From a virus: 42,194 nucleotides of DNA. The stretch is taken from positions 1-42,194 of the IMG/VR virus record IMGVR_UViG_3300007029_000002. One strand, written 5' to 3'. Position 1 is the stretch's first letter. Every line of letters begins with the position of its first letter. The notes under the pieces are model-generated. The model was not told the origin of the DNA, searched no databases, and saw nothing but the letters and a program-made list of their open reading frames with translations. This document shows, in pieces, positions 26,265-41,757 of this stretch. Both the position numbers and the translations under genes were made by a program.

Positions 26265-26267
26265 CCT

Positions 26268-27326: not shown

Positions 27327-27328
27327 GG

Positions 27329-28336: not shown

Positions 28337-28358
28337 ACGACGAACGTTAACGCAAGGT

Positions 28359-28378: not shown

Positions 28379-28385
28379 ATACCCC

Positions 28386-29150
28386 TTAGAAGAAGTCGTC
28401 GATCGGCGTTTGCGCCGTGACGTCTTCGCACCGTTTTCTAGCTAGCGACGCGTATTCGTGGCTTAGTTCGTACCCGACGGCGTCGCGCCCTTCTTGAAGC
28501 GCGGCGGCTAACGTCGTGCCCGACCCGGCGAACGGGTCGAAGACGGTGTCGCCGGGGAAGGAATACAAGCGGATTAGCCGCGTCGGTAGTTCGATCGGGA
28601 AGGGTGCCGGGTGGTCGTCGGCGACTTCCCGGTCGGCGGGCGTATACGGGATATGCCAAACCGACTTTACGTATTCCATAAAGTCGCGCTTCGTCATTGT
28701 TTCCCCGGATTGGTCGGGTCGGTCGGGTCGTTCCTTGAAGAAGACTAAGACTTCTTCGTGCGTGAATATCTGTCGCGGGTTCGACGGCGATCGCCACGAA
28801 CCCCACGCCGACGACGCTTCCGACGGGCCTTTTTCCCATACGAACTTATCGCGCAATTCGAAGCCGACGTCTTCGGCGACGGCTTTCACGATCGCGGGCT
28901 TATCGTGGCACGGTACGCCCGACCCGACGGCTATGTTAACGGCGAAGCGCCCGCCGCTTCGTAACGCCGCGTACACGCCTTCGAAGACGTCGCTTAGTAG
29001 GTCGACCCATTTCCCTTCGGGAAGGTCGTCGTCGTGCGTGTCGTACGTCACGCCGACGTTATACGGTGGCGACGTCACGGCTAGGTCGACCGACCGGTCG
29101 TCGACGTCGTGCATATTCCGCGCGTCGCCTTCGATAACGTCGTATTGCAT
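28386..29150 (-). CDS. DNA methyltransferase, beta class, probably N4-cytosine
   Basis: A 254-residue enzyme, MQYDVIEGDARNMHDVDDRS. The catalytic motif is TSPPYN at residues 26-31, and the S-adenosylmethionine site DPFAGSGTT lies near residue 212, so motif IV precedes motif I (beta class). SPPY rather than DPPY points to N4-cytosine. No restriction enzyme gene is adjacent, so it is an orphan methyltransferase, of the kind that haloarchaeal viruses use for self-protection or regulation. The recognition site cannot be read from the sequence. Its start overlaps the upstream gene's stop. Confidence 0.85.
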   Translation of the reverse strand: MQYDVIEGDARNMHDVDDRSVDLAVTSPPYNVGVTYDTHDDDLPEGKWVDLLSDVFEGVYAALRSGGRFAVNIAVGSGVPCHDKPAIVKAVAEDVGFELRDKFVWEKGPSEASSAWGSWRSPSNPRQIFTHEEVLVFFKERPDRPDQSGETMTKRDFMEYVKSVWHIPYTPADREVADDHPAPFPIELPTRLIRLYSFPGDTVFDPFAGSGTTLAAALQEGRDAVGYELSHEYASLARKRCEDVTAQTPIDDFF

Positions 29151-29485
29151 TATCCCGTCTTTTGGATTGTAACGACCACCCGGTCGCCGTCGTACCCGGT
29201 GTCGTGCTTGTATTCGACCTTCCGAATCGTATCGAACCGCGCCATTACCGACGGTTCGGCGTCGTCTTTGAATGACGAAGCGCCGGGGAAGAACGCCGCC
29301 GCGATCGCTTCCCGTACCGCCGATTCAAGGGTGCGCGTTACGCATAGGTCGTCGTCGGGCATTCCGAAATTCGTCTTCGTGCCCTTCGAACCGCGCCCGT
29401 ACACTTCGTCGACGATCGACTTCCCGACGCCGTCGTCGGCGGGAAGGTCTATCGTGTACGTCGGCGGGTAATCGTGCCCTTTCAT
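29150..29485 (-). CDS. Unknown protein
   Basis: A 111-residue protein from ATG at 29485, MKGHDYPPTYTIDLPADDGV, starting 2 bases after the regulator stop. A long helix (CVTRTLESAVREAIAAAFFP) is followed by strands ARFDTIRKVEYKHDTGYDGD and RVVVTIQKTG. The layout (short strand, helix, strands, many Asp) is reminiscent of small phage nucleases, but no motif confirms it. Confidence 0.55.
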   Translation of the reverse strand: MKGHDYPPTYTIDLPADDGVGKSIVDEVYGRGSKGTKTNFGMPDDDLCVTRTLESAVREAIAAAFFPGASSFKDDAEPSVMARFDTIRKVEYKHDTGYDGDRVVVTIQKTG

Positions 29486-29486
29486 T

Positions 29487-29822
29487 CTAGGCGACACCTA
29501 ACGCGGAAAGTGCGGTCGACGTCGCCCCTTCGTGGTACCCGACGATCGCGTCGACGCCCTTCGACGTCACGCGGTACCCGTTCGTACGCCGGTCGTGCTT
29601 GTGCTTCGAAACGTACCCGGCGTCGACTAGGGCGTCTAAGTTCGGGTATAGCCGCCCGTGGTTAATTTCGTATCCGCGCCATTCTTCGATTTGCCGCTTT
29701 ACGGAAAGCCCGTACGGGCACGTTTCGTCGGTCGCGTCGGGCGTGCCGCCCTTCGCCGCTATCGCGTTTAGTAAGTCCCTTTGAAAGCCGGTAAGGTCGG
29801 CTAGGTGGGTGGTATCAGACAT
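29487..29822 (-). CDS. PadR-like winged-helix transcription regulator
   Basis: A 111-residue DNA-binding protein. FQRDLLNAIAAKGG opens the winged helix; EINHGRLYPNLDALVDAGYV is the recognition helix region and HDRRTNGYRVTSKG the wing. This exact layout is typical of PadR-family regulators found on haloarchaeal chromosomes, plasmids and viruses. It stands first in the string that includes the methyltransferase, with a promoter at 29863-29844, so it may control that operon or its own expression. Confidence 0.8.
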   Translation of the reverse strand: MSDTTHLADLTGFQRDLLNAIAAKGGTPDATDETCPYGLSVKRQIEEWRGYEINHGRLYPNLDALVDAGYVSKHKHDRRTNGYRVTSKGVDAIVGYHEGATSTALSALGVA

Positions 29823-29843
29823 TACGTTCGATACGGTATTCCG

Positions 29844-29863
29844 GTTATATGATAAGCGTGTCG
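29844..29863 (-). promoter_or_regulatory. Promoter of the PadR-like gene
   Basis: Minus strand CCGACACGCTTATCATATAA; the ATATAAC element starts about 28 bases before ATG 29822. Confidence 0.6.
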
Positions 29864-29880
29864 GAAGGGTTACGCGACCG

Positions 29881-30570
29881 TCATAAAGGCGACATTAACG
29901 CGTATGCGCCCCAAATGAATAGAAGGGCAAGGGCGACGAATATAGCGATTCGACGCCACGGGATACCCCTTTGTTTCCCGTCGAACGTGACGGCGTCGAC
30001 TTCCCGATCGTCGGGCGGCGTCGGCGTCGGTAGGTCTTTGTTAACGACGCGACCGACGGCGGCTTCGAATTCCCGAAGGGTGATATCGCCCGCGTCGAAC
30101 GCGTCTTCTAACCCGGCGATTTTCGCGTACGCTTCCCCGGTCGCCCGGTCTTTCGCGTCGACGATCGCGTCGGGCGTCACCCGCTTTTCGAACGCCGACA
30201 CGGGCGCGTCTATCCATTCGGCGAACGCGGCTTCGTCTTCGTCTTCGAACATTACTTCGACCGACACGCCCGCGCCCCATTCGCCGGGTTCGCTTGCCGT
30301 TCCGATTAGCGCCTTCGACGCCTTGATTCGCTTCCCCGGCGCGTCGAAGACGTCGTCGACGGTGTCGAATTGGGGAAGGTGACGCACGGCGGCTTCGACG
30401 ATATGGTTAAAGCGCGGGTCGGTGGCGTACCGGTACCTAGCTAGGTGTATGTTCGTCGGGATACGCACGACTTCGAACGCTTCTAAGTTCGTCGGGCTTC
30501 GGTCGACGTGCGACGTCGCGTCGTTCGATCGGTACGGGTCGCCGCCTAGCCGGGGGTTATCGCGTGTCAT
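29881..30570 (-). CDS. Membrane-anchored protein, C-terminal helix
   Basis: A 229-residue protein, MTRDNPRLGGDPYRSNDATS. The long soluble part contains strand-helix units (NLEAFEVVRIPTNIHLARYR, DPRFNHIVEAAVRHLPQFDT, GVSVEVMFEDEDEAAFAEWI). The C-terminus is one transmembrane segment, IAIFVALALLFIWGAYALM, so the protein would face the cytoplasm, tail-anchored. Unknown. Confidence 0.65.
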   Translation of the reverse strand: MTRDNPRLGGDPYRSNDATSHVDRSPTNLEAFEVVRIPTNIHLARYRYATDPRFNHIVEAAVRHLPQFDTVDDVFDAPGKRIKASKALIGTASEPGEWGAGVSVEVMFEDEDEAAFAEWIDAPVSAFEKRVTPDAIVDAKDRATGEAYAKIAGLEDAFDAGDITLREFEAAVGRVVNKDLPTPTPPDDREVDAVTFDGKQRGIPWRRIAIFVALALLFIWGAYALMSPL

Positions 30571-30713
30571 TCGTCGGTCGGGATTGTTAGGGCGACGTCT
30601 AATTCGACGCCGCCTAGGTCGTTTCGTCGTTCGCGGGTGAATTGGTGTACGATTACGCCCGCGTCTTCTAACGCTTCGATAATGCGCCGCTTTTCGTCGG
30701 GGAATGTAGCCAT
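30567..30713 (-). CDS. Small protein, unknown
   Basis: Forty-eight residues from ATG at 30713, MATFPDEKRRIIEALEDAGV then IVHQFTRERRNDLGGVELDV. It begins on the stop of the preceding zinc gene (TAATG) and ends by overlapping the membrane-anchored gene. Not recognised. Confidence 0.55.
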   Translation of the reverse strand: MATFPDEKRRIIEALEDAGVIVHQFTRERRNDLGGVELDVALTIPTDE

Positions 30714-30958
30714 TAGCCTTCTATGAAGAACGCCCATTCGTGGTCGCACGCCGGGCACCGCTTTCGATAGTACCCGAAGTCGCTATACCGCGTCGACGAC
30801 GACACCGTTTCCGCGTCGATCGGGCATTCGCACGGCGACTTATCCTTTAGGTCGTCGTACCACGACGGCGGCTTCCGCGACCGTCGGGTGCCGACCGCGT
30901 CGCGCCGTTCGCGTCGCGTCATTCGGGCGGCTAACTGTCGGCGGTTATTCCTTCGCAT
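30713..30958 (-). CDS. Small zinc-ribbon protein, basic start
   Basis: Eighty-one residues, MRRNNRRQLAARMTRRERRD, very basic at the start. A zinc ribbon follows: PCECPIDAETVSSSTRYSDF and KRCPACDHEWAFFIEG, close to the layout seen in haloarchaeal virus proteins with 'CP-x-x-x-H-x-W'. It overlaps the preceding gene by 14 bases. Confidence 0.65.
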   Translation of the reverse strand: MRRNNRRQLAARMTRRERRDAVGTRRSRKPPSWYDDLKDKSPCECPIDAETVSSSTRYSDFGYYRKRCPACDHEWAFFIEG

Positions 30959-31151
30959 TGTTATCGAAGATTAGGTCGAAGCCTTCCCGTACGCGCTTCC
31001 GGTGGCGGGCTTCTTTCGCCTTCTTCGCCCAATATTCGGCTTCCGCTTCTTGCCTTTGGCGTTCGTACCGGTCGCGTTCCGTTTCGGGATATTCGCATAT
31101 CCCCGACCCGTCGCCCGGTCGCGGGGGTTCTAGACTGATTGGCGTAACCAT
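30945..31151 (-). CDS. Small charged helical protein
   Basis: Sixty-eight residues from ATG at 31151, MVTPISLEPPRPGDGSGICE; the longer open frame upstream is a shadow of the preceding gene. It is dominated by one charged helix, RDRYERQRQEAEAEYWAKKA, a probable coiled coil. Unknown. Confidence 0.6.
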   Translation of the reverse strand: MVTPISLEPPRPGDGSGICEYPETERDRYERQRQEAEAEYWAKKAKEARHRKRVREGFDLIFDNNAKE

Positions 31152-31153
31152 TG

Positions 31154-31813
31154 TTAGACTTCGTCTTCCCACGATTCGGGCGACACGATCGCGTCGACGC
31201 GGTACTTCGCGGTGCCCGACGGATACGTAACTTCCCGTTCTTCGTAAAGGTCGTCGGGCGAAGACGGGTGCGCTAGGTGCGCGTCGGGTGCGTCGACTAA
31301 CGCCGCGCCGGGTTCGTCGACCGCGACTTCTTCGTACCGGGTGCCGTCGATCGTTTGTTCGACTTCCCCGTCGATTAGGGTTTGTAACACCCGTTCGCAT
31401 AGGGATTCGACGACTTGCTTACGCACCATTTCGCGGGCGTCTTCGACCTTCGACGCGTCTTCCCATTCGACGCCGCGTACGTCCCTATGGTGAAATTGAA
31501 ACGTGCGGTACGCGACCGATTCGTGTTTCGATAAGTCGCGCCACCCGTCGGTATCCTTCGCGGATACCCGCAAGTCCATATCTTCGATTTTTTCTTCTAG
31601 TAGGTCGAAGCGGTACGCGGTGATTCGGAAGGGAACGACGGCGCGTACGTGAAAGTCGTCGTCGACGTCGGTAACGACTTCGGCGTACGCACGCACCGCG
31701 TCGTACACGGCTTCGACGTCGTCTTCCCATTCCTTGCGGGCTTGCCGTTCGTCGCCCCTATTGTCTAACGCTAGGCTATTCGGGTCGGTCGGTGTTTCGA
31801 TTACGTCGTACAT
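31154..31813 (-). CDS. Unknown protein
   Basis: A 219-residue acidic protein, MYDVIETPTDPNSLALDNRG. It has a helical region (WEDDVEAVYDAVRAYAEVVT), strands HVRAVVPFRITAYRFDLLEE and a second helical part (DAREMVRKQVVESLCERVLQ). It is first in a string of five small genes and has a promoter at 31861-31838. Not recognised. Confidence 0.6.
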   Translation of the reverse strand: MYDVIETPTDPNSLALDNRGDERQARKEWEDDVEAVYDAVRAYAEVVTDVDDDFHVRAVVPFRITAYRFDLLEEKIEDMDLRVSAKDTDGWRDLSKHESVAYRTFQFHHRDVRGVEWEDASKVEDAREMVRKQVVESLCERVLQTLIDGEVEQTIDGTRYEEVAVDEPGAALVDAPDAHLAHPSSPDDLYEEREVTYPSGTAKYRVDAIVSPESWEDEV

Positions 31814-31837
31814 TGTTCGGTTTTGTCTTGTGTGTCG

Positions 31838-31861
31838 GATAACTGATTAACGTGTCGCAAG
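31838..31861 (-). promoter_or_regulatory. GCGACACG-type promoter
   Basis: Minus strand TTGCGACACGTTAATCAGTT, with a TATA-like TTAATC; ATG 31813 about 37 bases away. Confidence 0.55.
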
Positions 31862-31863
31862 CC

Positions 31864-32163
31864 CTATACGGCAAGGATTACGGCGGTATTCCACGCCGTG
31901 ATACCGAAGCCGAATAGGGCTAAGACGATCGGGAATGCGATTCGATAGTCGACGGGCGACCGTCGGGCGAAGGCGAACGCGACGCCGACGACGACGCCCT
32001 TTGCGACTAGCATTCCGGCGGTGCCGGTGGTCGCTAAGACCGACGCCGAAACCGGGTGCCCTTCGACCGCGCCGAATAGCCGTATCCCTAGCGTCGTCGT
32101 GACGACGTCGGCGACGACGAAAAGGGCGAAAGCGGCGCACCAAAGGGCATTATTCGGCGTCAT
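31864..32163 (-). CDS. Membrane protein, three transmembrane helices
   Basis: A 99-residue hydrophobic protein: ALWCAAFALFVVADVVTTTL, then GTAGMLVAKGVVVGVAFAFA and FPIVLALFGFGITAWNTAVI. A few charged residues separate the helices. Similar small multi-span proteins are common in haloarchaeal virus genomes; holin or membrane scaffold roles are possible but unproven. Confidence 0.7.
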   Translation of the reverse strand: MTPNNALWCAAFALFVVADVVTTTLGIRLFGAVEGHPVSASVLATTGTAGMLVAKGVVVGVAFAFARRSPVDYRIAFPIVLALFGFGITAWNTAVILAV

Positions 32164-32176
32164 AAACCATATACCG

Positions 32177-32383
32177 CTATACTATTCTTTGAAGGCTATT
32201 CTTGATTCGGTCGACGACCGACGGTCGGTAATCGTCGGCTTCGATCGTGACGTAACATAGCCCGGTGCCGATTAGAAGGGCGATCGCACGCGCTTCTAAC
32301 GGCGTCACGTCGACGTCGACCGGGTCGTCTTCCGGCGGGTCGATCGTTATGGTCGTTTCGCGGGTTTCGCATTCGGGCGTCAT
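32177..32383 (-). CDS. Small acidic protein, unknown
   Basis: Sixty-eight residues, MTPECETRETTITIDPPEDD, with strands and a helix EARAIALLIGTGLCYVTIEA. Its ATG overlaps the stop of the tiny zinc gene as ATGA. The motif 'E-A-x-A-I-A-x-L-I' resembles a short helical repeat in haloarchaeal plasmid proteins. Not recognised. Confidence 0.55.
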   Translation of the reverse strand: MTPECETRETTITIDPPEDDPVDVDVTPLEARAIALLIGTGLCYVTIEADDYRPSVVDRIKNSLQRIV

Positions 32384-32520
32384 TCTTTCCCTTGCTTTAG
32401 GTTATCCGGTGCGACGACTAGACCGCACCCGTCGCATTCGAATTGTGCGCCGGGTTCGGGTCGTCGAAGCGTGCCACCGCACCGGTAGCACTTCGGGCCT
32501 TGATTCGACGTCGTCGCCAT
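32380..32520 (-). CDS. Tiny zinc-ribbon protein (46 aa)
   Basis: MATTSNQGPKCYRCGGTLRR then PEPGAQFECDGCGLVVAP and a Lys-rich end. CYRCG...CDGCG is a standard four-Cys zinc ribbon, like those of small haloarchaeal regulators. The stop overlaps the next ATG as ATGA. Confidence 0.65.
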   Translation of the reverse strand: MATTSNQGPKCYRCGGTLRRPEPGAQFECDGCGLVVAPDNLKQGKE

Positions 32521-32524
32521 TGTT

Positions 32525-32905
32525 CTAAGGCCCGGCGACGAAATGGTCGGTCGGCGTTAGGGCTTGAAGCACCCGGTTACGAAGCGACGACGGGTCGTCT
32601 TCCGGGCACGCGTGGAATACGACGCGTTCGCCACCGTCGCCGGGGATAGCCCTAGGCGACGTCGGGTCGAACCGGTAGCGCCCGAAGCCCGCTTCTAAGC
32701 CCTTGCGGGCGACCATAGCGGGCACGACCACCGTGTCGATACGCACGGTACCGTCGACGTCTTCTTGCCCTAGGTGGCGCGTGACGTCGTCGAAAAGGTC
32801 GGCTAGTTCGTCGTCGGTCGCGTCGTTAAGGGCTTCCCTAACGACGTGCATTTCGTGGTCTTTGCGATCGGCGTAATCGTCCGAACGCGTATGGCTTCGC
32901 ACCAT
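32525..32905 (-). CDS. Unknown acidic protein (MVRS start)
   Basis: A 126-residue protein beginning MVRSHTRSDDYADRKDHEMH. Helices (VVREALNDATDDELADLFDD), a strand part GTVRIDTVVVPAMVARKGLE and PRAIPGDGGERVVFHACPED are visible. The first 12 bases of the gene match those of four others and the ATG lies 30 bases from the TATA box, so the message is leaderless. Confidence 0.65.
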   Translation of the reverse strand: MVRSHTRSDDYADRKDHEMHVVREALNDATDDELADLFDDVTRHLGQEDVDGTVRIDTVVVPAMVARKGLEAGFGRYRFDPTSPRAIPGDGGERVVFHACPEDDPSSLRNRVLQALTPTDHFVAGP

Positions 32906-32928
32906 AGGGGTACCAATACGGCAAGGGT

Positions 32929-32943
32929 AAATAAATCTATCGC
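32929..32943 (-). promoter_or_regulatory. GATAGA-type leaderless promoter
   Basis: Minus strand GCGATAGATTTATTTA; first T of TTTATT at 32935, 30 bases before ATG 32905; CCCTTGCC follows. Here GACAGA is GATAGA. Confidence 0.7.
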
Positions 32944-32978
32944 CGTTATAGCCCTTCGTGCAAGACGCTTGTATGACG

Positions 32979-33479
32979 CTATACGGGTAACTTCGGGTCG
33001 CGTTCGAAGGCGTCGCGGTTCGCGTAATAGGGGTTATAATACGGGTTCGACCCGCCGAAGTCTTCTAACGTGGCGAACGGGATATCTTCGAAGTCGTATT
33101 CGTCGGCGTCTAACGACACGACTTCGATTAGGTCGGCGTCGTGCATTCGGAAGTCGCGCCACCCGTGCGGTACCGGCGTAACTTTCACGTCGTACGCACC
33201 GTACGCGTCGTAATCCGTTTTCACCCGGTAGAATTCCCCGCCGGGCACGATCGGGTCGTGCCGGTGCCGGAACGCGTCTAGTTCGTCGGCGTCGGTATGG
33301 TACATTCGACCGGGGTTTCGCTTTCCCTTCGGTACCGTTAACGCCGTGTACCCGCGAAGGGCGATTAGCGATTCGTCTTCCGGTAGGTTCGGAAGCACGG
33401 CGGCGGCGGTTAAGGCTTCCCGAACGGGCATACTGATATCGGTTCGAAGGTCGTCGTACGTCTTCGGTGCTTTAGGCAT
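32979..33479 (-). CDS. Unknown protein
   Basis: A 166-residue protein from ATG at 33479, MPKAPKTYDDLRTDISMPVR, one base after the upstream stop. Helix MPVREALTAAAVLPNLPEDE, then strands around GYTALTVPKGKRNPGRMYHT and YDAYGAYDVKVTPVPHGWRD. The end is Tyr/Asn-rich, GSNPYYNPYYANRDAFERDP. Not recognised. Confidence 0.6.
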   Translation of the reverse strand: MPKAPKTYDDLRTDISMPVREALTAAAVLPNLPEDESLIALRGYTALTVPKGKRNPGRMYHTDADELDAFRHRHDPIVPGGEFYRVKTDYDAYGAYDVKVTPVPHGWRDFRMHDADLIEVVSLDADEYDFEDIPFATLEDFGGSNPYYNPYYANRDAFERDPKLPV

Positions 33480-33480
33480 A

Positions 33481-33777
33481 TTAGTCGGAAGGTTCGCGGT
33501 CGGCAAGGGCTTTCGCCACCCGCGACATTACGATCGCGGGCTTCGGGTCGTGGTCGATCGTCACGGTTTCGCCGTCGAATTGTAGTTCGTGCGCGACGGG
33601 TTCGAACCCGCCGTCGTACTTAGCGAATAGGTGCGCGTGCGGCGCGTCTTCTTTGGTGTCGCCGTGATACCACGATATCACGTCGCCTTCGACCCAATTT
33701 AGCACCCAATCGCCGGGCGCGGGTACTTCCGCGCCGCGCCATTCTTCCCCTTCGTATCCGGTCTTTCCGCGATTCAT
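33481..33777 (-). CDS. Small beta-rich protein, unknown
   Basis: A 98-residue protein, MNRGKTGYEGEEWRGAEVPA. DWVLNWVEGDVISWYHGDTK and HAHLFAKYDGGFEPVAHELQ suggest a small barrel; it ends with a helix AIVMSRVAKALADREPSD. It overlaps the previous gene by 4 bases. Unknown. Confidence 0.6.
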   Translation of the reverse strand: MNRGKTGYEGEEWRGAEVPAPGDWVLNWVEGDVISWYHGDTKEDAPHAHLFAKYDGGFEPVAHELQFDGETVTIDHDPKPAIVMSRVAKALADREPSD

Positions 33778-33977
33778 TGTACGCCCTTCCCGTCGGGTTC
33801 GTCTTTCACTAAGTCGCCTTGCCGGTCGACCGCGTGGTCGAAGCGGTTTTCGGCGACGTCTTTCACGTCGGCGGTCGTTTCCCCCGCCGCGCCTTGCACG
33901 GTTACTTCGACTCCCCCGTCGGGTGTCGACGCCCGCATATAGACGCGTGGTCGTTCGTCGCTTCCGTTATCACTCAT
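33774..33977 (-). CDS. Small acidic protein, unknown
   Basis: Sixty-seven residues from ATG at 33977, MSDNGSDERPRVYMRASTPD, overlapping the upstream gene by 8 bases. The strand GGVEVTVQGAAGETTADVKD and the helical DVAENRFDHAVDRQGDLVKD look like a compact domain. Not recognised. Confidence 0.55.
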   Translation of the reverse strand: MSDNGSDERPRVYMRASTPDGGVEVTVQGAAGETTADVKDVAENRFDHAVDRQGDLVKDEPDGKGVQ

Positions 33978-34260
33978 TCCGACCACCGCCTAGAAGCGCG
34001 TCGATTATCCGAAGGAATACGAAGGCGTACCCGAAGGCGATCGCACCGCCGACCGCGACGGCGGCGTACACGCCGACACGCGACCATACGAATAGGGTTA
34101 CGCCGACCGCGACCGCAAGGGCGGCGACGAATAGAACGCCGTACACGAACGCAAGCACGGCGACCACGGCGGCGCTAGGCGGGATACCCGGAAGGGGTAC
34201 CGTCGACGGTTTGGCCTTAGACGCCGCTTCCGATAGGCGTCGCTTGATATCGCCCGCCAT
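33970..34260 (-). CDS. Membrane protein, two or three transmembrane helices
   Basis: Ninety-six residues from ATG at 34260 (MAGDIKRRLSEAASKAKPST), coupled to the PCNA stop by TAATG. Helices AAVVAVLAFVYGVLFVAALA, VAVGVTLFVWSRVG and VYAAVAVGGAIAFGYAFVFL form a hydrophobic body with an Arg-containing end. It ends by overlapping the next gene by 8 bases. Unknown role. Confidence 0.65.
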   Translation of the reverse strand: MAGDIKRRLSEAASKAKPSTVPLPGIPPSAAVVAVLAFVYGVLFVAALAVAVGVTLFVWSRVGVYAAVAVGGAIAFGYAFVFLRIIDALLGGGRNE

Positions 34261-35081
34261 TACTTCGTCGAATCTATGCGCGGCGCTTGCCCGATCGTCG
34301 TTTCGATCGCACCGTCGTACCGCGTCGTGTCGATAAAGTAAGGTAGTTCGTCGCCGGTTACGAACGGTACGGCGTCGTGGTCGGATAGAAGACCGGGCAC
34401 CGCCTTTAGGTACGCGTTCGATTGTTTCGATTCGCGCACGGGTGTCGGCGGGTCGCTTTCCCATTCGAAAAGGTCGGATTCGTGTACCGACACCGTCGAC
34501 GCGTCGGTGTCACCGACCGACGTTACTTCGAAGATAGGGTCGTCGTCACCGTTCGAACCCATATAGAACGTGGCTATTTCGCCGAACATATCGACGATAT
34601 CGGAAGCCCGCTTTAGTTTATCGACGGGTAAGGTAACTTCGACGTCGTACGCGTACTTCGACCGGTCGGGCATTTGGTCTAGCCGATCGTTTACGCTTTC
34701 CGGGTCGATACCTGAAAGCGAATAGTCGACGTCTTCGAACCGAATGTCGAACTTGCGGGTTTCCGGGTTAAAGGCGAATTCGAAGACCGAATCGTTATCG
34801 GCGACTTTGATTAAGTCGGCGATTCGTTCGGTGTTTAGCCCGATTACCACGCCGGGGAATTCGTAATGTTCGAATTCGTCGGCGGGCGTGTATTGTTCTA
34901 TCATTTGCACGTTAGCCGCGTCGCGGGTGGCGACGCGCAAGCCTTCTTCGCCGAATTCGAAGACGGCTTCTTGCCGGGTGGCGACGGCGTTTATCCCTTC
35001 GACGATCGCGTCGATAAGGCCCGCTTCGCAAATGAACGACGGCGCGTTATCGGGCGCGGGCTTCGGCTTCGTGGTCGACAT
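34260..35081 (-). CDS. pcn: DNA sliding clamp, PCNA
   Basis: A 273-residue processivity clamp from ATG at 35081 (MSTTKPKPAPDNAPSFICEA). It shows both halves of the archaeal PCNA fold: GINAVATRQEAVFEFGEEGL, VATRDAANVQMIEQY and the DADLSK-like KVADNDSVFEFAFNPETRKF region, then KLKRASDIVDMFGEIATFYM and, near the end, YLKAVPGLLSDHDAVPFVTG. The clamp would tether a polymerase, viral or host, and also endonucleases. It is about 25 residues longer than host archaeal PCNA because of inserts such as EWESDPPTPVRESK. It is first in its operon, with a promoter at 35126-35109. Confidence 0.85.
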   Translation of the reverse strand: MSTTKPKPAPDNAPSFICEAGLIDAIVEGINAVATRQEAVFEFGEEGLRVATRDAANVQMIEQYTPADEFEHYEFPGVVIGLNTERIADLIKVADNDSVFEFAFNPETRKFDIRFEDVDYSLSGIDPESVNDRLDQMPDRSKYAYDVEVTLPVDKLKRASDIVDMFGEIATFYMGSNGDDDPIFEVTSVGDTDASTVSVHESDLFEWESDPPTPVRESKQSNAYLKAVPGLLSDHDAVPFVTGDELPYFIDTTRYDGAIETTIGQAPRIDSTK

Positions 35082-35108
35082 TGTACGACGAAAGGTATTG
35101 CGCAAGGG

Positions 35109-35126
35109 TCTAAAAGCGTGTCGCTA
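35109..35126 (-). promoter_or_regulatory. GCGACACG-type promoter of PCNA
   Basis: Minus strand TAGCGACACGCTTTTAGACC; the first T is at 35115, 34 bases before the ATG at 35081; CCTTGCG follows. Confidence 0.7.
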
Positions 35127-35157
35127 TACACTATCAAGTCGAAAGGGAAAGTCGGGA

Positions 35158-35232
35158 TACACCCGGCGGGATTCGAACCCGCGTCGCGCGATCGAAAGTC
35201 GCGCATTATTGGCCCGACTAAACCACGGGTGC
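35158..35232 (-). tRNA. tRNA-Glu (anticodon UUC)
   Basis: Acceptor GCACCCG pairs with CGGGTGT (one G-U pair), D-arm GTGGTTTAGTCGGGCCAA, anticodon stem CGCGA-CTTTCGA-TCGCG with anticodon TTC, and T-arm GCGGG-TTCGAAT-CCCGC. The CCA end is not encoded. It reads GAA, nearly the only Glu codon in this window, and closely follows the archaeal Glu tRNA pattern. Confidence 0.93.
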
Positions 35233-35244
35233 GCGTGCCGCAAG

Positions 35245-35327
35245 TGACGGGTGCCGGATTCGAACCGGCGAAGTGCTACCACGCCGGGTCTTAAGCCCGG
35301 TGCATTCGACCGCTTTGCTAACCCGTC
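35245..35327 (-). tRNA. tRNA-Leu (anticodon UAA)
   Basis: Acceptor GACGGGT with ACCCGTC, anticodon arm CCGGG-CTTAAGA-CCCGG with anticodon TAA, a long variable arm (CGTGGTAGCACTTCG) as in class II tRNAs, and T-arm GCCGG-TTCGAAT-CCGGC. It reads TTA (and TTG by wobble). Confidence 0.93.
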
Positions 35328-35329
35328 AA

Positions 35330-35404
35330 TAGTGCTAGGTGGATTCGAACCACCGTCTTCCGCCCCAAAAGCGGAAAGGATTGGCCTAACTACCCCATAG
35401 CACT
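35330..35404 (-). tRNA. tRNA-Gln (anticodon UUG)
   Basis: Acceptor AGTGCTA with TAGCACT, D-arm GGGGTAGTTAGGCCAATC, anticodon arm TCCGC-TTTTGGG-GCGGA with anticodon TTG, and T-arm GGTGG-TTCGAAT-CCACC. It reads CAA, nearly the only Gln codon used here. All three tRNA genes are intron-free. Confidence 0.93.
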
Positions 35405-35449
35405 TCGTCGGTCGTACGTCGAAAGGTACCGACTTAGGTTCGTCGCTAG

Positions 35450-35740
35450 CTAGTCTTCGGGTACGTCGACGCGTTCCGGGTTTTCGACGCGGAAGACTTC
35501 GGGTTCTTCCCCATACACCTTTAGCGATATCCGGTCGGGTGCAAGGTTCGGGTTACGGTCGACGCGCGGGTCGAAATAGAAATGTTCTATCGGCGACCCG
35601 GAAGGCATATCGACGGTATTCGACGGGTCGCGGTACACGATCGCGTCGGCGTTCGCGTACCGGCGTGGTAACTTGAAGAATCCGTCTTCTTCTTGAATTA
35701 CCACCGTGCCCGTGACGTCGTCGTAACTAACCTTCGTCAT
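35450..35740 (-). CDS. Unknown protein
   Basis: A 96-residue protein, MTKVSYDDVTGTVVIQEEDG, with strands FFKLPRRYANADAIVYRDPS and EHFYFDPRVDRNPNLAPDRI. It ends just before the three tRNA genes and is last of a three-gene string (36075-37181, 35737-36075, this). Unknown. Confidence 0.6.
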   Translation of the reverse strand: MTKVSYDDVTGTVVIQEEDGFFKLPRRYANADAIVYRDPSNTVDMPSGSPIEHFYFDPRVDRNPNLAPDRISLKVYGEEPEVFRVENPERVDVPED

Positions 35741-36075
35741 TCGTCGGTATCCCCGCCGACGTCGTCTTCGTCGACGATTAGGTCGGCTAGTTCGCCCGAA
35801 TTGAAGTCGGGCGCTTCCCCGTCGTCGTCGACTAACGACGTGTACCGTTCGACCACGGCGACGAAGCCTTCTAGCGTCTTCTTCGTCGTGGCGACTTTCG
35901 TACGACCACCGGCTTCCGCGTTAACGTCGCGGGCCAATTGGTCGAATAGTTCGTCGTCTTGCCGTAACCATTCGACGCCGTCGGCTAGTCGCTTGTACGC
36001 TAACGCCCGCCGGAAAAGCGGCGTATTAAGCACGCGGCTAAGTTCGTCGTCGCTTAGGTCGTTCGGGTCTATCAT
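35737..36075 (-). CDS. Unknown helical protein
   Basis: A 112-residue acidic helical protein, MIDPNDLSDDELSRVLNTPL. Helices FRRALAYKRLADGVEWLRQD and KKTLEGFVAVVERYTSLVDD are clear. ATG overlaps the upstream stop as TAATG. Unknown. Confidence 0.6.
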   Translation of the reverse strand: MIDPNDLSDDELSRVLNTPLFRRALAYKRLADGVEWLRQDDELFDQLARDVNAEAGGRTKVATTKKTLEGFVAVVERYTSLVDDDGEAPDFNSGELADLIVDEDDVGGDTDE

Positions 36076-37181
36076 TATTCGCCACCCGCGTTAGCCCGCC
36101 AATAGGCGGGTACGATCGCACCGACGTCGGCTAGCGCTTCGACGATATCGTCGGTCGACGGGTGCGACCCGACGTCGACGTCGTCACGGTTCGACGCGAT
36201 TACCTTTAGCGCGTTATACGTAAGCGGGCCTTCTAACGCGTTTTCGAACGATTCGACGCGTTCGTCGGCGTCGATATCGTCGCGCCCGAATTCTATTTCT
36301 AGCCCGGTGACGTCGCGGTTATTCGCGCCCGACGGAATGGTGACGGTGGCGACGTCGCGGTCGCGTTCGACCGGTTCGGGTTCGTCGTCTTCTTCGGCTT
36401 CCGGCGCGAAGTTTTCTAACGTCGTTTCGGGCACGTCTTCGTCTTCCGCGATCGGTTCGCCACGATCGACGACGTCTAGCCGCCCGGTCTTAGCGAAGTT
36501 TTCCGCCCATTTCGGGATATCCGGGTCTTCGTCGGTCGCCTTCGTTCCCGACGTATAGATAACGCGCGTTAGGTACGCGTACCCGATTATCCCCGGTCGG
36601 TTTTCCCCGCACCCGTGCGGGTGGATTACCCAACACCGGGTACGCAAGGGTTCGACGATCGGTGGTTCTTGCCGCGACGAAACGGGGATTTTCAGGTTTA
36701 ACCCCCGGTCGCGCGATTCTTCGATAAATTCTTCCGGCGTTTCCCAATTCGACTTACCGACCGACATTAGAATGTCGATCGCCTTCGCCGACGTGATATC
36801 GCCGTAATGGTCGCCGTCGAACCCCCACCGCCGAAGGCGGTCGATATGGTCGTCGATATCGCCTTCGGGCGTCGTCGTGCCGCCGTTCGCCACGTAATGA
36901 AGGCTAAACGAATTGCCGGGGAAGGCATTGTACCCCGGAATTATCGCGCCCTTGCCGGGGTTTTCCCGGTATTCGATCGGGTCGTCTAGCGTCACCCACG
37001 GCGGAATTTCCCCGTCGGGTGACGATAGCGCCGCGACGTCGGTTCGCACGTACGCCGAATTCGGCTTTAGGTGCCCGCACCCACGTTCGCGGTTATCGAC
37101 CGTTTCGCGCCCGGCGTCGTCGCCGCCGGGTCGCCCTTTGTCTAACATTTCTTCGACCGCTTTTACTAGTTGTGTCGTCAC
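36075..37181 (-). CDS. Unknown protein, haloviral type
   Basis: A 368-residue protein from GTG at 37181 (MTTQLVKAVEEMLDKGRPGG). The first 250 residues contain CGHLKPNSAYVRTDVAALSS, GAIIPGYNAFPGNSFSLHYV, RDRGLNLKIPVSSRQEPPIV and RCWVIHPHGCGENRPGIIGY; the Cys/His spacing may bind metal. A strongly acidic linker (APEAEEDDEPEPVERDRDV) leads to a C-terminal helical domain, SFENALEGPLTYNALKVIAS. Not recognised. Its promoter at 37236-37220 leaves a leader of about 16 bases. Confidence 0.6.
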   Translation of the reverse strand: MTTQLVKAVEEMLDKGRPGGDDAGRETVDNRERGCGHLKPNSAYVRTDVAALSSPDGEIPPWVTLDDPIEYRENPGKGAIIPGYNAFPGNSFSLHYVANGGTTTPEGDIDDHIDRLRRWGFDGDHYGDITSAKAIDILMSVGKSNWETPEEFIEESRDRGLNLKIPVSSRQEPPIVEPLRTRCWVIHPHGCGENRPGIIGYAYLTRVIYTSGTKATDEDPDIPKWAENFAKTGRLDVVDRGEPIAEDEDVPETTLENFAPEAEEDDEPEPVERDRDVATVTIPSGANNRDVTGLEIEFGRDDIDADERVESFENALEGPLTYNALKVIASNRDDVDVGSHPSTDDIVEALADVGAIVPAYWRANAGGE

Positions 37182-37219
37182 GGTTACGCACCTTTGCGCC
37201 TTTCCCTATTCCGCAAGGT

Positions 37220-37236
37220 GTTAAAAGCGTGTCGCT
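37220..37236 (-). promoter_or_regulatory. GCGACACG-type promoter
   Basis: Minus strand ATAGCGACACGCTTTTAACACC; GTG start at 37181 is 45 bases from the first T; CCTTGCGG follows. Confidence 0.7.
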
Positions 37237-37392
37237 ATTCACCCTTTGGGTTTACCGACCCTTACGGCGGCACGGGTGGCACGACCACCGATCGCTTATA
37301 ACGCCGCACGCGGCGCGTGACGCGGCGGCACGTCTAACGGGTCGTATGGGTCGCGGAAGAAGAAGCGCGTCGTCGTGGCGGGCGTGGCGGGC
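37237..37392. other. Non-coding stretch with hairpins
   Basis: About 155 bases with no supported gene. It holds GGTGG-CACGA-CCACC (about 37279-37293), CGCCGC-AC-GCGGCG near 37303-37316 and a TTATAA element near 37298. It may contain the terminator of the gene ending at 37393; a second RNA gene cannot be excluded. Confidence 0.4.
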
Positions 37393-38775
37393 CTATCCGT
37401 CGTCGTACGTGACGCCACGAAGCGGCACGTTCGCCCAATCCCCGCCCGACGATTCGATTACCATACCGCCGACGGGCTTCGAACGCCCGGCGTCGCACGA
37501 CGGGCACGCGGTCGTAAGCGTGTAATCCTTCTTCGTCGACCGACCGACCTTGTACGTCGACACGCGAAGGAACGGGTCGACGCGGTCGCCGCACGTACGG
37601 CACCGGGCAAGGGCGTCGAAGACGTCGCGCCCCTTATCGGTCGCCCGCCACCGGGCGTTAGGGTCGTCGAAGGCGACGTCGCCGTCGTCGGCGCGGGCGA
37701 TAAGGCCCGTTTCCCACGCGTCTTCGACGACGGTGCGCCACGCTTGCTTATTGTGCGCGGCACCCGACGGGCGGCGGAAGCCCGTGCCCGGTTCGCCGTC
37801 GCCGCGACCGGTGCCGTAAGCGCCTTGCTTGCCCGTATGGATAGGCCCGACGTCTTCCGGGTCGACCGGGTCGTCGGTGTCGAATAGCCCGCCGCCCGTT
37901 TGCGCGTCGATCGTCGCCCGGTAGTTGCCCCAATAGATAACGTCACGAAGCACGGCGACGATATTCGACGCGCTAAACGACTTGTGGTCGCCCATACGGT
38001 CGACGACGTCGTCGGGAAGGTCGGCGTCGTCGGGCGACCACGTATCGACGTCTTCGCACGCCGGGCAAACGTCGCCGAAGACCGGGTGCGTCTTCTTCGC
38101 GGGTGCGTCGTGCGTGTCGCCGCAATTGCCGCATTCGAACGTGTCGATATACGCGTCGGCGACTTTTTCCCGGTCGTCGCCTTCGCCTTCGTATTCGGCG
38201 CTAACGTGCGCGTCGTCACGAATCGCGTACGTGTACCGCCGAAGGCTAAGGCGACGAACGATCGAAGCCGACACTTCGACGTCTTCTTCGTCGTCGACGT
38301 CGGCGACGAAGTCTTCCCATTTGTCGGCGTCGAAGTCGGTGTCTAAGCACCCGGCGGGCACCGTCGCGCGGTACCATAGCGGGCGCGACTTGCCCGAATC
38401 CGGGTGCGTCGGCGACCCTTCCGACGCGCGGCGCACTTCGAACGGGCATTCGTCGCACGACCACGTTTCCGTAACCGTGCCCGCGTCTTCGTCGTGGTCG
38501 TATTCGCGGTCGGGTCGCGGGTGGTCGTCGCACGGGCACGCGGGGTAAGACGACCACGATAGCGATTCGGCGTCGGCGTCGCGGTCGTACGATTCGAAGA
38601 CCTTGTGAACGACGACGCCGTCGACGACGTCGGTTTCGACGTGCGCGTCGTGGCGAATCAAGACGTCGAAGTCTTCCGGTTCGACGTGCCGAAGGAAATG
38701 GTCGCGGTCGTCGCCGTGCGCGGCGTCGACTATGCTTTCGATCGTCGGTTCGTCGCCGGCCTTGCTTCGCACCAT
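37393..38775 (-). CDS. Large multi-zinc protein, unknown (MVRS start)
   Basis: A 460-residue protein, MVRSKAGDEPTIESIVDAAH. Three zinc sites are clear: CPCDDHPRPDREYDH with CDECPFEV; ECGNCGDTHDAPAKKTHPVF with CPACEDVD; and CRTCGDRVDPF with CPSCDAGRSK. Between them lies a helical region (VDRMGDHKSFSASNIVAVLR) and a winged-helix-like part (AWRTVVEDAWETGLIARADD, ARWRATDKGRDVFDALARC). Stacked ribbons with a winged helix suggest a nucleic-acid-binding protein. Leaderless promoter 29 bases upstream. Confidence 0.65.
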   Translation of the reverse strand: MVRSKAGDEPTIESIVDAAHGDDRDHFLRHVEPEDFDVLIRHDAHVETDVVDGVVVHKVFESYDRDADAESLSWSSYPACPCDDHPRPDREYDHDEDAGTVTETWSCDECPFEVRRASEGSPTHPDSGKSRPLWYRATVPAGCLDTDFDADKWEDFVADVDDEEDVEVSASIVRRLSLRRYTYAIRDDAHVSAEYEGEGDDREKVADAYIDTFECGNCGDTHDAPAKKTHPVFGDVCPACEDVDTWSPDDADLPDDVVDRMGDHKSFSASNIVAVLRDVIYWGNYRATIDAQTGGGLFDTDDPVDPEDVGPIHTGKQGAYGTGRGDGEPGTGFRRPSGAAHNKQAWRTVVEDAWETGLIARADDGDVAFDDPNARWRATDKGRDVFDALARCRTCGDRVDPFLRVSTYKVGRSTKKDYTLTTACPSCDAGRSKPVGGMVIESSGGDWANVPLRGVTYDDG

Positions 38776-38796
38776 ATTCTATAATACGCGCGGGGG

Positions 38797-38815
38797 TACA
38801 TAAATCTGTCGTCGT
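38797..38815 (-). promoter_or_regulatory. GACAGA-type leaderless promoter
   Basis: Minus strand TAACGACGACAGATTTATG; first T at 38804, exactly 29 bases before ATG 38775. Confidence 0.75.
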
Positions 38816-38830
38816 TATACTATGAATTGG

Positions 38831-39241
38831 TTACAATTCCGACCCGCACGTCGGGCAATATCGAAGGTCGTGGTAATTGCGTTCGACGTCGTCGACTAAC
38901 GCCGGGTGTATACGCCGATCGCACCCGCCGCATTCCGTGACGTCTTCGGGCGGGTCGGTAACGACGTCGTAATCGCCGCGCCGGTATTCGCGTTCTAACC
39001 GGTGGCGCACTTCCGCCGGTAACGATTCGCGTTCTTCGTCGGGTCGAAGGTCGTCGAATATCCCGTTATCGGCGTGTACTAGCCCGTGGCACCGCGTACA
39101 AAGGTACGCGATAACTTGCTTCGGTGTATATTGAATATGGTGCCGTTCGCCGAACGGTCTTCCGCATACGATACACGACGGGTCGTCGACGTCGGTATTC
39201 ATTCCCGGCACGACCCGGCGCGACGTTTCGAAGATATCCAT
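38831..39241 (-). CDS. HNH-like endonuclease or HNH-fold zinc protein
   Basis: A 136-residue protein from ATG at 39241 (MDIFETSRRVVPGMNTDVDD). The segment CIVCGRPFGERHHIQYTPKQ, followed by VIAYLCTRCHGLVHADNGIF, has the Cys pairs and His-His of HNH nucleases. A second zinc ribbon, CGGCDRRIHPAL with YCPTCGSEL, ends the protein. HNH nucleases of tailed viruses often help DNA packaging; a homing role is the alternative. It is read divergently from the TFB-like gene. Confidence 0.7.
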   Translation of the reverse strand: MDIFETSRRVVPGMNTDVDDPSCIVCGRPFGERHHIQYTPKQVIAYLCTRCHGLVHADNGIFDDLRPDEERESLPAEVRHRLEREYRRGDYDVVTDPPEDVTECGGCDRRIHPALVDDVERNYHDLRYCPTCGSEL

Positions 39242-39263
39242 ACCCCATATCAAATCGCCGTCG

Positions 39264-39275
39264 CCTTATATCTCA
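39264..39275 (-). promoter_or_regulatory. TATA box of the HNH-like gene
   Basis: Minus strand GAGATATAAGG, 30 bases before ATG 39241. It lacks the GCGACA box, so this one promoter may be recognised differently; it also holds a rare GAG. Confidence 0.6.
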
Positions 39276-39283
39276 AAGTGCAT

Positions 39284-39301
39284 TAGCGACACGCTTTTAT
39301 G
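39284..39301 (+). promoter_or_regulatory. GCGACACG-type promoter of the TFB-like gene
   Basis: TTAGCGACACGCTTTTAT followed by CCCTTGCGG; TTTATG begins 30 bases before ATG 39326. The factor would be controlled by the same promoter class it may recognise. Confidence 0.75.
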
Positions 39302-39325
39302 CCCTTGCGGTCGTTATTATCCCGT

Positions 39326-40351
39326 ATGAGTGTCGAAACCGACGGCGCGTCGCGTATCGAAGACCTAGCCGATCGTATCGGGCTTCCCGGTTCGGTCGCT
39401 ACCTTAGCGGTATCTATCCATAAGCAAGCGATCGACGCCGGGTTTAACCGCGTCGGCGACGGGCGCGAAATTCCCGGCGCACTATACGCCGCCGCCCGTA
39501 TCGAAGACCACCCGGTAAAGCCGCGTACGATCGCACGGGAATTCGACGCGGGTGTCGAAGCCGACGACGTCGTTTCCGATATGCGACGGCTAGTCGATAC
39601 GCTTCCGTACGACGTGTCGATCGAAGACCCGGCGACGTACGTTACCCGGTATTGCGACGACCTAGGCGTATCCGAACAATTCAAGGAAACCGCCGAAGGG
39701 CTTTGCGCCCGCGCCACCGAAGAAGGCGTGCATTCGGGGAAGTCGCCTTCCGGCTTCGCGGCGGGCGTCGTGTACGCCGTCGCGTACCTTCTAGACGCGC
39801 CGATTAAACAAAGCGAAGTCGCCGACGTGTCGGGCGTGTCGCCCGTCACGATTCGAAACCAATACCGCGATATCATTAAGGCGGGGTTCGACGGCGACAT
39901 TACGCCGCCGACGCCCGGCGACCGGGTCGCTATCGCCGACACCGTCGACCGTATCCTAGACGCCGTCGACGGCGTGCCCGACGTCGTGCGCGACGACGCT
40001 AAGGCGATCGTGCATAACCTTCCCGAAGCCGATTGGGTCGAAAACACCGACCCGAAGGGCGTCGCGTCGGGCGTCGTGTACGTCGCCGCGAAGGATAACC
40101 GCGTATCGCTTGCGCAAGACTATATCGGCGATATCGCGGGCGTGTCTAAGGGCACCGTCATTAGCCGGGTTAAGGATATCCGAGCGTGGCGCGGGCACGA
40201 AGCCGCCGTCGAAGACCGGAAGGCCCGGCTTGAAGACTTGAAGTATAACCGCTTGAAGGAACTAGCTAGCGACCACGACGTCGACGTCGGTGCGACGCCC
40301 GCCTTCGACGTGCTAGTCGAACGATTGGCGGAAGCCGGTGTCGACGCGTGA
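39326..40351 (+). CDS. TFB-like transcription factor with three cyclin repeats
   Basis: A 341-residue homologue of archaeal transcription factor B, which bridges the TATA-box protein and RNA polymerase and contacts the BRE. The N-terminal zinc ribbon and B-finger/reader are missing; the protein starts straight in the core. Repeat 1 (about residues 12-105) has GREIPGALYAAARIEDHPVK and PRTIAREFD; repeat 2 (about 110-200) has KSPSGFAAGVVYAVAYLLDA and QSEVADVSGVSPVTIRNQYR, the helix-turn-helix that binds BRE in host TFB; repeat 3 (about 205-290) has DPKGVASGVVYVAAKDNRVS and YIGDIAGVSKGTVISRVKDI. Host TFB has two repeats. ATG at 39326 fits the leaderless rule; the frame extends to 39299 upstream. 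Confidence 0.85.
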   Translation: MSVETDGASRIEDLADRIGLPGSVATLAVSIHKQAIDAGFNRVGDGREIPGALYAAARIEDHPVKPRTIAREFDAGVEADDVVSDMRRLVDTLPYDVSIEDPATYVTRYCDDLGVSEQFKETAEGLCARATEEGVHSGKSPSGFAAGVVYAVAYLLDAPIKQSEVADVSGVSPVTIRNQYRDIIKAGFDGDITPPTPGDRVAIADTVDRILDAVDGVPDVVRDDAKAIVHNLPEADWVENTDPKGVASGVVYVAAKDNRVSLAQDYIGDIAGVSKGTVISRVKDIRAWRGHEAAVEDRKARLEDLKYNRLKELASDHDVDVGATPAFDVLVERLAEAGVDA

Positions 40352-40716
40352 ATTTACCCGACGAAGTCGAAGCCGCGATCGAAGCGATATCCGAAAAGCA
40401 CGAACATATCACGGGGAAGACCGACCCGCTTCCCGAACCGGGCACGTACACGACGATCGAAATAGACGACGACGGGCGGAAGTCGGTCGAAACCGTGTAC
40501 CGGGAATTGCACGCCCGTATCGAAGCCTTGCTTTGGCGGTGCGACTTCGTGTACGGGTGTTACGCCCTTCAATTGGATAAGGAAAACGCGGCGCTTTACG
40601 TCGCCCTTTCCCCCGACGACCTTCCCGGCGAAGCCGACCAATTCGAACCGCATATTTCCGAACATTACGGCGACGTCTTCGGTGCGCCACCGTACGACGT
40701 CGACGACGATTCGTAA
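40348..40716 (+). CDS. Unknown protein
   Basis: A 122-residue protein from GTG at 40348 overlapping the TFB-like stop (GTGA). MNLPDEVEAAIEAISEKHEH starts helical, then GTYTTIEIDDDGRKSVETVY and CDFVYGCYALQLDKENAALY give a strand pair. Ends acidic. Translational coupling to the TFB-like gene suggests a partner in transcription, but there is no motif. Confidence 0.65.
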   Translation: MNLPDEVEAAIEAISEKHEHITGKTDPLPEPGTYTTIEIDDDGRKSVETVYRELHARIEALLWRCDFVYGCYALQLDKENAALYVALSPDDLPGEADQFEPHISEHYGDVFGAPPYDVDDDS

Positions 40717-40718
40717 CT

Positions 40719-41315
40719 ATGGGAAGCCACGACGACAGTTTAGACGCCCTTCGGTACGCCCTTGCCGCGCACGCCGGTCGGGTGCCCTACCCGAATCGGT
40801 ACGTCGCGTTCGAAGAAGTCGGGCGACCGAAGCGGTACACGTACGTCGACGAATTGCCGTCGCTTCGACCCGACTTCGAACTTACCGACCTTACCGACCG
40901 GGTCTTCGAAGCGACCGAACGCCGATCGTTCGATATCCTAATCGACGAAGCCGCGCACGAATTCGAACATTCCGACGGGCGGATTATCGACACCTTGCGC
41001 GACGCCGAAAACGCGATAAGAAACGCCGGGTACGGCGGGGAAACCGAATCGACGCCGTGTCGAAAGGTGTCGAAGGGTGCCGTATGGCTAACGTCGAAGG
41101 CGGTGCGTGACGCCCTAGCCGACACCCTATCCGACCCGCCGACGACCGACGGTATCGGTATCGACGGGTACGACGTGCTTGTGTCGCCCGAAGCGCCCGA
41201 CGACACGATCGTCTTAGTCGACACCCGCGTCGTTTCCGAACCGCCGGTCGTGTCAATCGCGGTGCCGTTCGTCGTAACCGACCCGAAGGGTATCGCCGTC
41301 GTGCGGGTGGTCTAA
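40719..41315 (+). CDS. Unknown protein with a terminase-like N-terminal motif
   Basis: A 198-residue protein. The first 19 residues, MGSHDDSLDALRYALAAHA, closely match the conserved end of the large terminase of this same window (HALDALRYALYTH). The remaining part is unrelated: TDRVFEATERRSFDILIDEA, then DGRIIDTLRDAENAIRNAGY and a strand-rich end, TIVLVDTRVVSEPPVVSIAV with TDPKGIAVVRVV. The gene follows the previous one by 2 bases and is coupled to the next by TAATG. Function unknown; the short N-terminal match could be a recombination remnant. Confidence 0.65.
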   Translation: MGSHDDSLDALRYALAAHAGRVPYPNRYVAFEEVGRPKRYTYVDELPSLRPDFELTDLTDRVFEATERRSFDILIDEAAHEFEHSDGRIIDTLRDAENAIRNAGYGGETESTPCRKVSKGAVWLTSKAVRDALADTLSDPPTTDGIGIDGYDVLVSPEAPDDTIVLVDTRVVSEPPVVSIAVPFVVTDPKGIAVVRVV

Positions 41316-41731
41316 TGTCGGCGCTAGGTGACTTCGCGGAATACTTCAAGGCCCGAAAGGTGCGTATCCGTCGGTGGTACGAAGACGGCGTCGGGCGATT
41401 CGCCTTTCGTATCCGAATCGACGGGCAAGACTTCGTATGCGTTTCCCGAAAGACCGCGCCGAAGAACGGTCGTACGTCGATTATGGCCCGCGTCGCGGGA
41501 AAGGCGCAAACCACCGACGCGCTTATAGCACTTCGCTTACGCGATAGAACGCTAGTATTCGACCCGATAACGGTACTTGCGCACGGGGAAGCCGAAGAAC
41601 CCCGCGAAGACGATCGCAAGGAACGCGGCGAAAAATGGGTGCGCGTCGCGTTAGACTTAGGGTGCGAATTCGACGAATGGTACGACGGCACCGCCGAACC
41701 CGCGCGGTTCGGTGACGTCGTCGAAGCATAG
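41315..41731 (+). CDS. Unknown protein
   Basis: A 138-residue protein, MSALGDFAEYFKARKVRIRR, with beta-strand pairs FAFRIRIDGQDFVCVSRKTA and a helical centre DALIALRLRDRTLVFDPITV. It ends GEKWVRVALDLGCEFDEWYD. Short, basic start and beta body are typical of small viral proteins; not recognised. Confidence 0.6.
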   Translation: MSALGDFAEYFKARKVRIRRWYEDGVGRFAFRIRIDGQDFVCVSRKTAPKNGRTSIMARVAGKAQTTDALIALRLRDRTLVFDPITVLAHGEAEEPREDDRKERGEKWVRVALDLGCEFDEWYDGTAEPARFGDVVEA

Positions 41732-41757
41732 GGAAGCCCGGATATGACGACGTAAGA

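Follow-up and report, generated by a model that had tools for sequence, protein, structure and literature searches.

Three tRNA genes in a conserved slot

The window, that is, the whole stretch of DNA analysed here, is the 42,194-base virus record IMGVR_UViG_3300007029_000002. Its genes for a portal, prohead protease, major capsid protein, tail tube and large terminase are those of a tailed archaeal virus, and it also encodes a TFIIB-like factor, a PCNA-like protein and an N4/N6 DNA methyltransferase. Three tRNA genes lie in tandem on the minus strand: tRNA-Glu(UUC) at 35158..35232, which reads GAA, tRNA-Leu(UAA) at 35244..35327, which reads TTA and possibly TTG, and tRNA-Gln(UUG) at 35330..35404, which reads CAA. 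All three were predicted by ARAGORN and score 53-61 bits against Rfam model RF00005 (59.6, 61 and 52.9 bits, respectively; gathering score 29). A sequence-only reading had named these as the only tRNA genes, and both programs agree for this record, which looks like a fragment that begins at g0 and ends after g71. In two relatives, G007 and G013, the region joining the homologues of the window's two ends holds about 9 kb of genes that appear to be missing from the window, and no tRNA was found in that 9 kb in either.

The acceptor stem is paired at 7/7 positions in each of the three tRNAs. The end of the stem is a G1-U72 wobble in tRNA-Glu and an A1-U72 pair in tRNA-Gln, the latter being used in archaeal tRNA-Gln identity. 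The anticodon loops of tRNA-Glu (CUUUCGA) and tRNA-Leu (CUUAAGA) look ordinary. With a full tRNA fold these are complete tRNA genes. A DNA-pattern scan of all viral contigs gave no match to a tRNA-Gln(UUG) resembling that of the window, and comparison of the window tRNAs with plasmids and phages gave nothing beyond weak tRNA-level similarity.

The slot that holds the tRNAs is bordered downstream by g62 (34260..35081, minus strand), a PCNA-like gene whose Pfam match (PCNA_N, E 4e-4) is barely past the cut-off and which is also recognized by synteny in relatives. The upstream border is g65 (36075..37181, minus strand), a conserved gene with 57-65% identity in close relatives and no match in Pfam or PHROG, which is separated from the tRNAs by two small genes at 35450-36075.

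Among isolates, the Haloarcula viruses HHTV-2 (capsid 54% identical) and HCTV-2 (49%) of the Saparoviridae are nearest. The portal is about 49% identical, the head genes are in the same order, and the Saparoviridae set of capsid, portal, protease and tail-tube genes is present in order in the window, a likeness by genes and not a formal family demarcation. These isolates differ from the window in that neither GAG (observed/expected 1.52 and 1.07) nor CAG (0.83 and 1.42) is avoided, GAA makes up 16-17% and CAA 3-9%, and there are zero tRNA genes. Genome scans and plasmid searches for a host returned no provirus (by capsid alignment), close TFB or spacer match, and megablast searches of plasmids gave no match. 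The TFIIB-like factor (39326-40351, plus strand), a possible viral transcription switch, is only about 36% identical to plasmid TFBs over half its length and therefore names no host. Single-sequence scans with the PCNA-like and TerL proteins returned no relatives. A Haloarcula halophila plasmid (NZ_CP119561.1; L054 9228-14043) carries a 23-tRNA array adjoining a type B DNA polymerase.

Avoidance of short words in the DNA

On base composition and counting both strands, GAG/CTC is observed 23 times in the window with 1511 expected, and CAG/CTG 49 times with 1511 expected. Four-base words are affected too: GATG/CATC is absent (307 expected), CATG occurs twice (307 expected) and GGAC/GTCC 12 times (449 expected). 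The avoidance of these and other words extends over 1..42194 on both strands. On the coding strand GAG, CTC, CAG and CTG stand at 0.00-0.05 of expectation in each of the three codon phases, the depletion is equally strong in and out of frame and on either strand of genes, and between genes there are 2 GAG/CTC and 14 CAG/CTG, with 140 of each expected. Depletion on both strands regardless of reading frame is as expected of restriction-site avoidance. Since it is found out of frame, on both strands and in intergenic DNA, the constraint acts on the DNA, with the codon pattern as its consequence.

The tRNA genes themselves are free of GAG, CTC, CAG and CTG (0 in 234 nt), where about 18 would be expected from 23 haloarchaeal tRNAs of a Haloarcula plasmid (71 GAG/CTC and 66 CAG/CTG, 137 in total, in 1782 nt). 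This suggests that they are either old residents of the genome or were rewritten after arrival. The earlier claim that word avoidance acts at the DNA level is thus borne out in every codon phase, on either strand, in intergenic DNA and within the tRNA genes.

Relatives avoid other words. GATC and CTAG are at their expected frequency in the window (1.08 and 0.94), but several close relatives have none or almost none of them. G016 (L049, L050; IMGVR_UViG_3300046059_000011) avoids GAG, GAC/GTC and CATG, and is enriched in GATC (4.1-fold), GATG (3.2-fold) and CAG (1.8-fold). GAGC/GCTC, not GAG, is avoided in G008 (L024, L025), where it occurs 0 times with 173 expected, in G010 (L026, L027) and in G017 (L051, L052); in these three the Ile codon ATA is at 34-50%. 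The N4/N6 methyltransferase of the window (28386..29150, minus strand; Pfam N6_N4_Mtase, E 1.4e-38) is a possible counter-defence candidate.

Codon use of the virus

Glu is encoded by GAA 1051 times and by GAG 10 times (99% GAA), Gln by CAA 206 times and by CAG 12 times (about 95% CAA), and Leu by CTA (253), CTT (242), TTA (148), TTG (62), CTG (3) and CTC (2), so that CTC and CTG together make up 0.7% of Leu codons. These counts confirm the prediction that avoidance pushes Glu to GAA, Gln to CAA and Leu off CTC and CTG. Elsewhere this genome of 59% GC retains G/C-ending codons (GAC 85%, AAG 72%). Relative to five non-avoiding relatives the gains per 1000 codons are GAA +65, TCG +21.5, CTT +17, CTA +17, CAA +15 and TTA +8, the Ser codon TCG being already at 26% in those relatives. 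The shift to codons that are rare in the non-avoiding relatives is mostly in Glu, Leu and Gln (GAA 99% in the window vs 22%, CAA 95% vs 10%, TTA 21% vs 6%), rarity being judged here against viral relatives, from which the codon use of the host may differ.

The tRNAs had been proposed to read exactly the codons left by the avoidance. This holds for GAA and CAA and fails for Leu, in which the main replacements, CTA and CTT (70% of Leu codons), have no viral tRNA, and tRNA-Leu(UAA) serves TTA and at best TTG (30%). At the level of amino acids, simple arithmetic gives 1/1140 for drawing exactly these three from 20, so that this agreement in amino acids is unlikely to be due to chance.

tRNAs and codon use among relatives

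Relatives were gathered by scans of IMG/VR with the capsid, g65, g66 and PCNA-like proteins, and the avoidance is graded among them. The comparison set consists of ten relatives with g65, eight of which have the PCNA-like gene as well and so the whole slot. Values are given as observed/expected for GAG and CAG, followed by the percentages of GAA, CAA and TTA+TTG. In the window (0.02, 0.03; 99, 95, 30%) the slot contains Gln, Leu and Glu tRNAs. Gln and Leu occur together in G014 (0.05, 0.06; 99, 88, 25%), G019 (0.08, 0.16; 96, 85, 32%) and G013 (0.08, 0.27; 98, 81, 29%), in the last of which the Gln gene has an intron, and G018 (0.03, 0.04; 100, 96, 37%) has one broken Gln/Leu chimera. Leu is alone in G007 (0.01, 0.70; 99, 48, 43%) and G015 (0.35, 0.32; 79, 46, 19%). 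The slot has no tRNA in G016 (0.19, 1.83; 89, 6, 7%) or G008 (1.29, 0.45; 28, 15, 12%), nor was one found in G017 (1.68, 0.45; 24, 10, 8%) or G020 (1.15, 1.02; 40, 22, 14%), for both of which a g65 relative was found and the PCNA-like gene was not. All tRNA-bearing relatives use this slot except G010, which has a tRNA-Leu(UAA) near the terminase. Among the relatives examined, tRNA-Glu(UUC) is exclusive to the window.

The presence of tRNA-Gln(UUG) follows the use of CAA. It is present in all five viruses with 81-96% CAA, the window included (four intact, one broken remnant), and absent from all six with 6-48% CAA, although absence in a fragment record could reflect its unsequenced part. With the remnant counted, the gene coincides with the five highest CAA values of the eleven, for which the permutation probability is 1/462; inside the GAG-avoiding clade of seven it is 1/21, and with G018 scored as absent 0.036. 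The sample behind these values is small, consisting of ten relatives that are partly non-independent and include several fragments, and the hypothesis was in part refined while the table grew. G019, the only informative case to arrive after the pattern had been stated, fitted it fully; G018, obtained just before, carries the Gln sequence and has lost the intact fold. G016, which avoids GAG and enriches CAG, has neither high CAA nor tRNA-Gln(UUG). In a concatenated tree, in which the placement of G007 and the window is not settled, G013 and G015 are sisters with 100/100 support, and they differ as predicted: G013 has the Gln gene and 81% CAA, G015 lacks it and has 46%. The Gln difference is therefore not one split between clades.

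The association of tRNA-Leu(UAA) with TTA+TTG is moderate (p 0.037; 0.083 for TTA alone), and that of tRNA-Glu(UUC) with GAA is not supported (0.36). The Glu gene is missing in G007, G013, G014, G018 and G019 despite 96-100% GAA, three of these records being 45-51 kb. The expectation that relatives without the avoidance would also lack the tRNAs is thus supported for Gln, moderately so for Leu, and not for Glu, for which a codon-linked rule across relatives is not supported. A relative with the same tRNA and ordinary codon use had been named as evidence against the idea, and for tRNA-Leu(UAA) G010 is such a virus (GAA 24%, CAA 16%, TTA+TTG 16%, CTC+CTG 69%).

Structure and decay of the tRNAs

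Across the six viruses with tRNA-Leu(UAA) in the slot, 97.5% of stem cells are paired and 13 pairs have been altered on both sides. Covariation is 0.68 compared with 0.20 after shuffling, far above both shuffled and slid controls. This indicates that the Leu tRNA is under structural selection and, judging from its sequence, that it has been kept functional.

The remnant in G018 (L056 9867-9938; G018:12093-12164) seems to be the 5' part of a Gln tRNA fused, at the T arm that both share, to the 3' end of a Leu tRNA. The acceptor stem is open in the normal register (2/7 pairs at the usual length of 73), and the Rfam alignment spans only model positions 8-63. It looks like a deletion, misassembly being the alternative. 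Both words are fully avoided in G018 and its slot holds just this broken tRNA, which suggests that the tRNAs are not strictly needed; an intact cassette seems dispensable under full avoidance, barring tRNAs in the unsequenced part of G018.

The tRNA-Gln(UUG) gene of G013 (L031 1501-1617; G013:35600-35716) has an anticodon-loop intron of 32-47 nt, depending on the program, that holds a perfect hairpin. An intron-bearing tRNA-Gln reported by ARAGORN in G005 lies within a tail gene, has no Rfam support and was set aside, and introns of more than 1 kb from ARAGORN -i were treated as noise.

Discussion

We consider it reasonably likely that the tRNA cassette compensates for a change in codon use that followed a purge of short words in this lineage. 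An agent that senses short DNA words would have purged GAG/CTC, CAG/CTG and several 4-mers from the virus and its near kin. The agent would most likely be host restriction-type defences, by analogy with the avoidance of palindromes in haloviruses and given the differing word sets among relatives. Three-base non-palindromic targets would be unusual for such a system, and a restriction target GAG or CAG was not found in the literature searched. As GAG, CAG, CTC and CTG double as the usual Glu, Gln and Leu codons in non-avoiding related viruses, their purge would have moved these amino acids onto GAA, CAA and CTA/CTT/TTA. If expressed, the cassette would then add decoding by tRNA-Gln(UUG) for CAA, tRNA-Leu(UAA) for TTA and, in the window virus only, tRNA-Glu(UUC) for GAA, and may have improved translation of the rewritten genome without being a precondition for it. 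Haloarchaea generally own UUC, UUG and UAA tRNAs, so the viral copies would add amount and not a missing function.

The direction could in principle be the reverse, with a codon or tRNA preference, for example that of a low-GC host such as Haloquadratum, driving GAA, CAA and TTA and the loss of words being a by-product. A Haloquadratum plasmid (GC 48%) with 49% GAA, 44% CAA and 10% TTA is indeed closer to the virus than are the high-GC relatives, but the words are missing to the same degree from other reading frames, from the non-coding strand and from intergenic DNA, 4-mers that are not codons are gone as well (GATG, 0/307), and the virus has a GC content of 59% and keeps its G/C-ending codons elsewhere. 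The phase, strand and intergenic test refutes codon preference as the main cause of the missing words. Such a preference could at most contribute to the effect, and we regard this reading as highly improbable. The tRNAs might instead be lineage baggage, acquired from hosts on one or a few occasions and kept or lost at random, the fit to codon use being a small-sample coincidence. The inheritance of the slot, the concentration of most tRNA-bearing viruses in one clade, the Leu gene of G010 with its ordinary codons, the independence of tRNA-Glu(UUC) from GAA and the decay in G018 all fit such a history. However, the Gln difference between the sister viruses G013 and G015 runs as predicted, the stems of the Leu tRNA show strong compensatory change, and a random set would seldom consist of just the three affected amino acids, which leaves coincidence unlikely as the explanation.

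Alternatively, an antiviral anticodon nuclease may destroy host tRNAs that the viral tRNAs replace, and the association with codon use would be secondary. The wobble base U34, a target of some nucleases, is common to tRNA-Glu(UUC) and tRNA-Gln(UUG), so that the set could be a replacement kit. The variability of the set between relatives, and the presence of tRNA-Glu(UUC) in the window but not in relatives whose codon use is the same, would suit such a role, which has been proposed for mycobacteriophage tRNAs with anticodon-loop mutations (PMC10264068). However, a nuclease does not predict that the Gln tRNA tracks CAA across 11 viruses, Lys-UUU is absent from the set, and nothing unusual is seen in the anticodon loops of Glu and Leu, as judged from the viral sequences. 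We think it rather improbable that nuclease evasion is the primary role of the cassette.

Codon compensation is the most established hypothesis for phage tRNAs (PMC10264068). As in those phages, the viral tRNAs here read codons that are frequent in the viral genome and, presumably, seldom used by the host; the difference is that the driver would be short-word avoidance in a GC-rich genome. Compensation itself is known, and short-word avoidance as its driver is unusual or new; a search of the open-licence literature with a few terms found no paper linking such avoidance to viral tRNAs. The tRNAs of nuclease-evading phages are likewise a small viral set able to refill a depleted host pool, but in the window's lineage the presence of the Gln tRNA tracks codon use. 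Strong depletion of short words, as in the window, is found in the HF1-group haloviruses, where it is credited to host restriction-modification and isolates lack GATC and CTAG (PMC7230728). The window is not depleted in GATC or CTAG; its main words are non-palindromic, are as short as three bases (GAG, CAG) and affect in-frame codons. The HF1-group viruses Hardycor2 and Serpecor1 carry tRNA-Arg(TCT) and/or tRNA-Asn(GTT), not the three tRNAs of the window.

Unusual codons and tRNAs in phages are usually attributed to general differences from the host. In the codon compensation proposed here the driver is visible and separable, because relatives avoid different words, which allows a one-to-one match of tRNA and word. 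The hypothesis thereby becomes testable inside one virus family, and escape from DNA surveillance is linked to translation. For a 42 kb genome to have lost a three-base word almost entirely is a strong constraint in its own right, and the stronger puzzle is why GAG and CAG are barred from this virus. We tentatively suggest, as a possibility that we hold with less than even confidence, that a defence arms race at the DNA level over three-base words rewrote the codon use of this lineage and that the cassette grew stepwise, from none to Leu, to Leu and Gln, to Leu, Gln and Glu, as more codon-bearing words became forbidden. If so, escape from DNA surveillance would have carried an indirect cost in translation, met by carrying tRNA genes.
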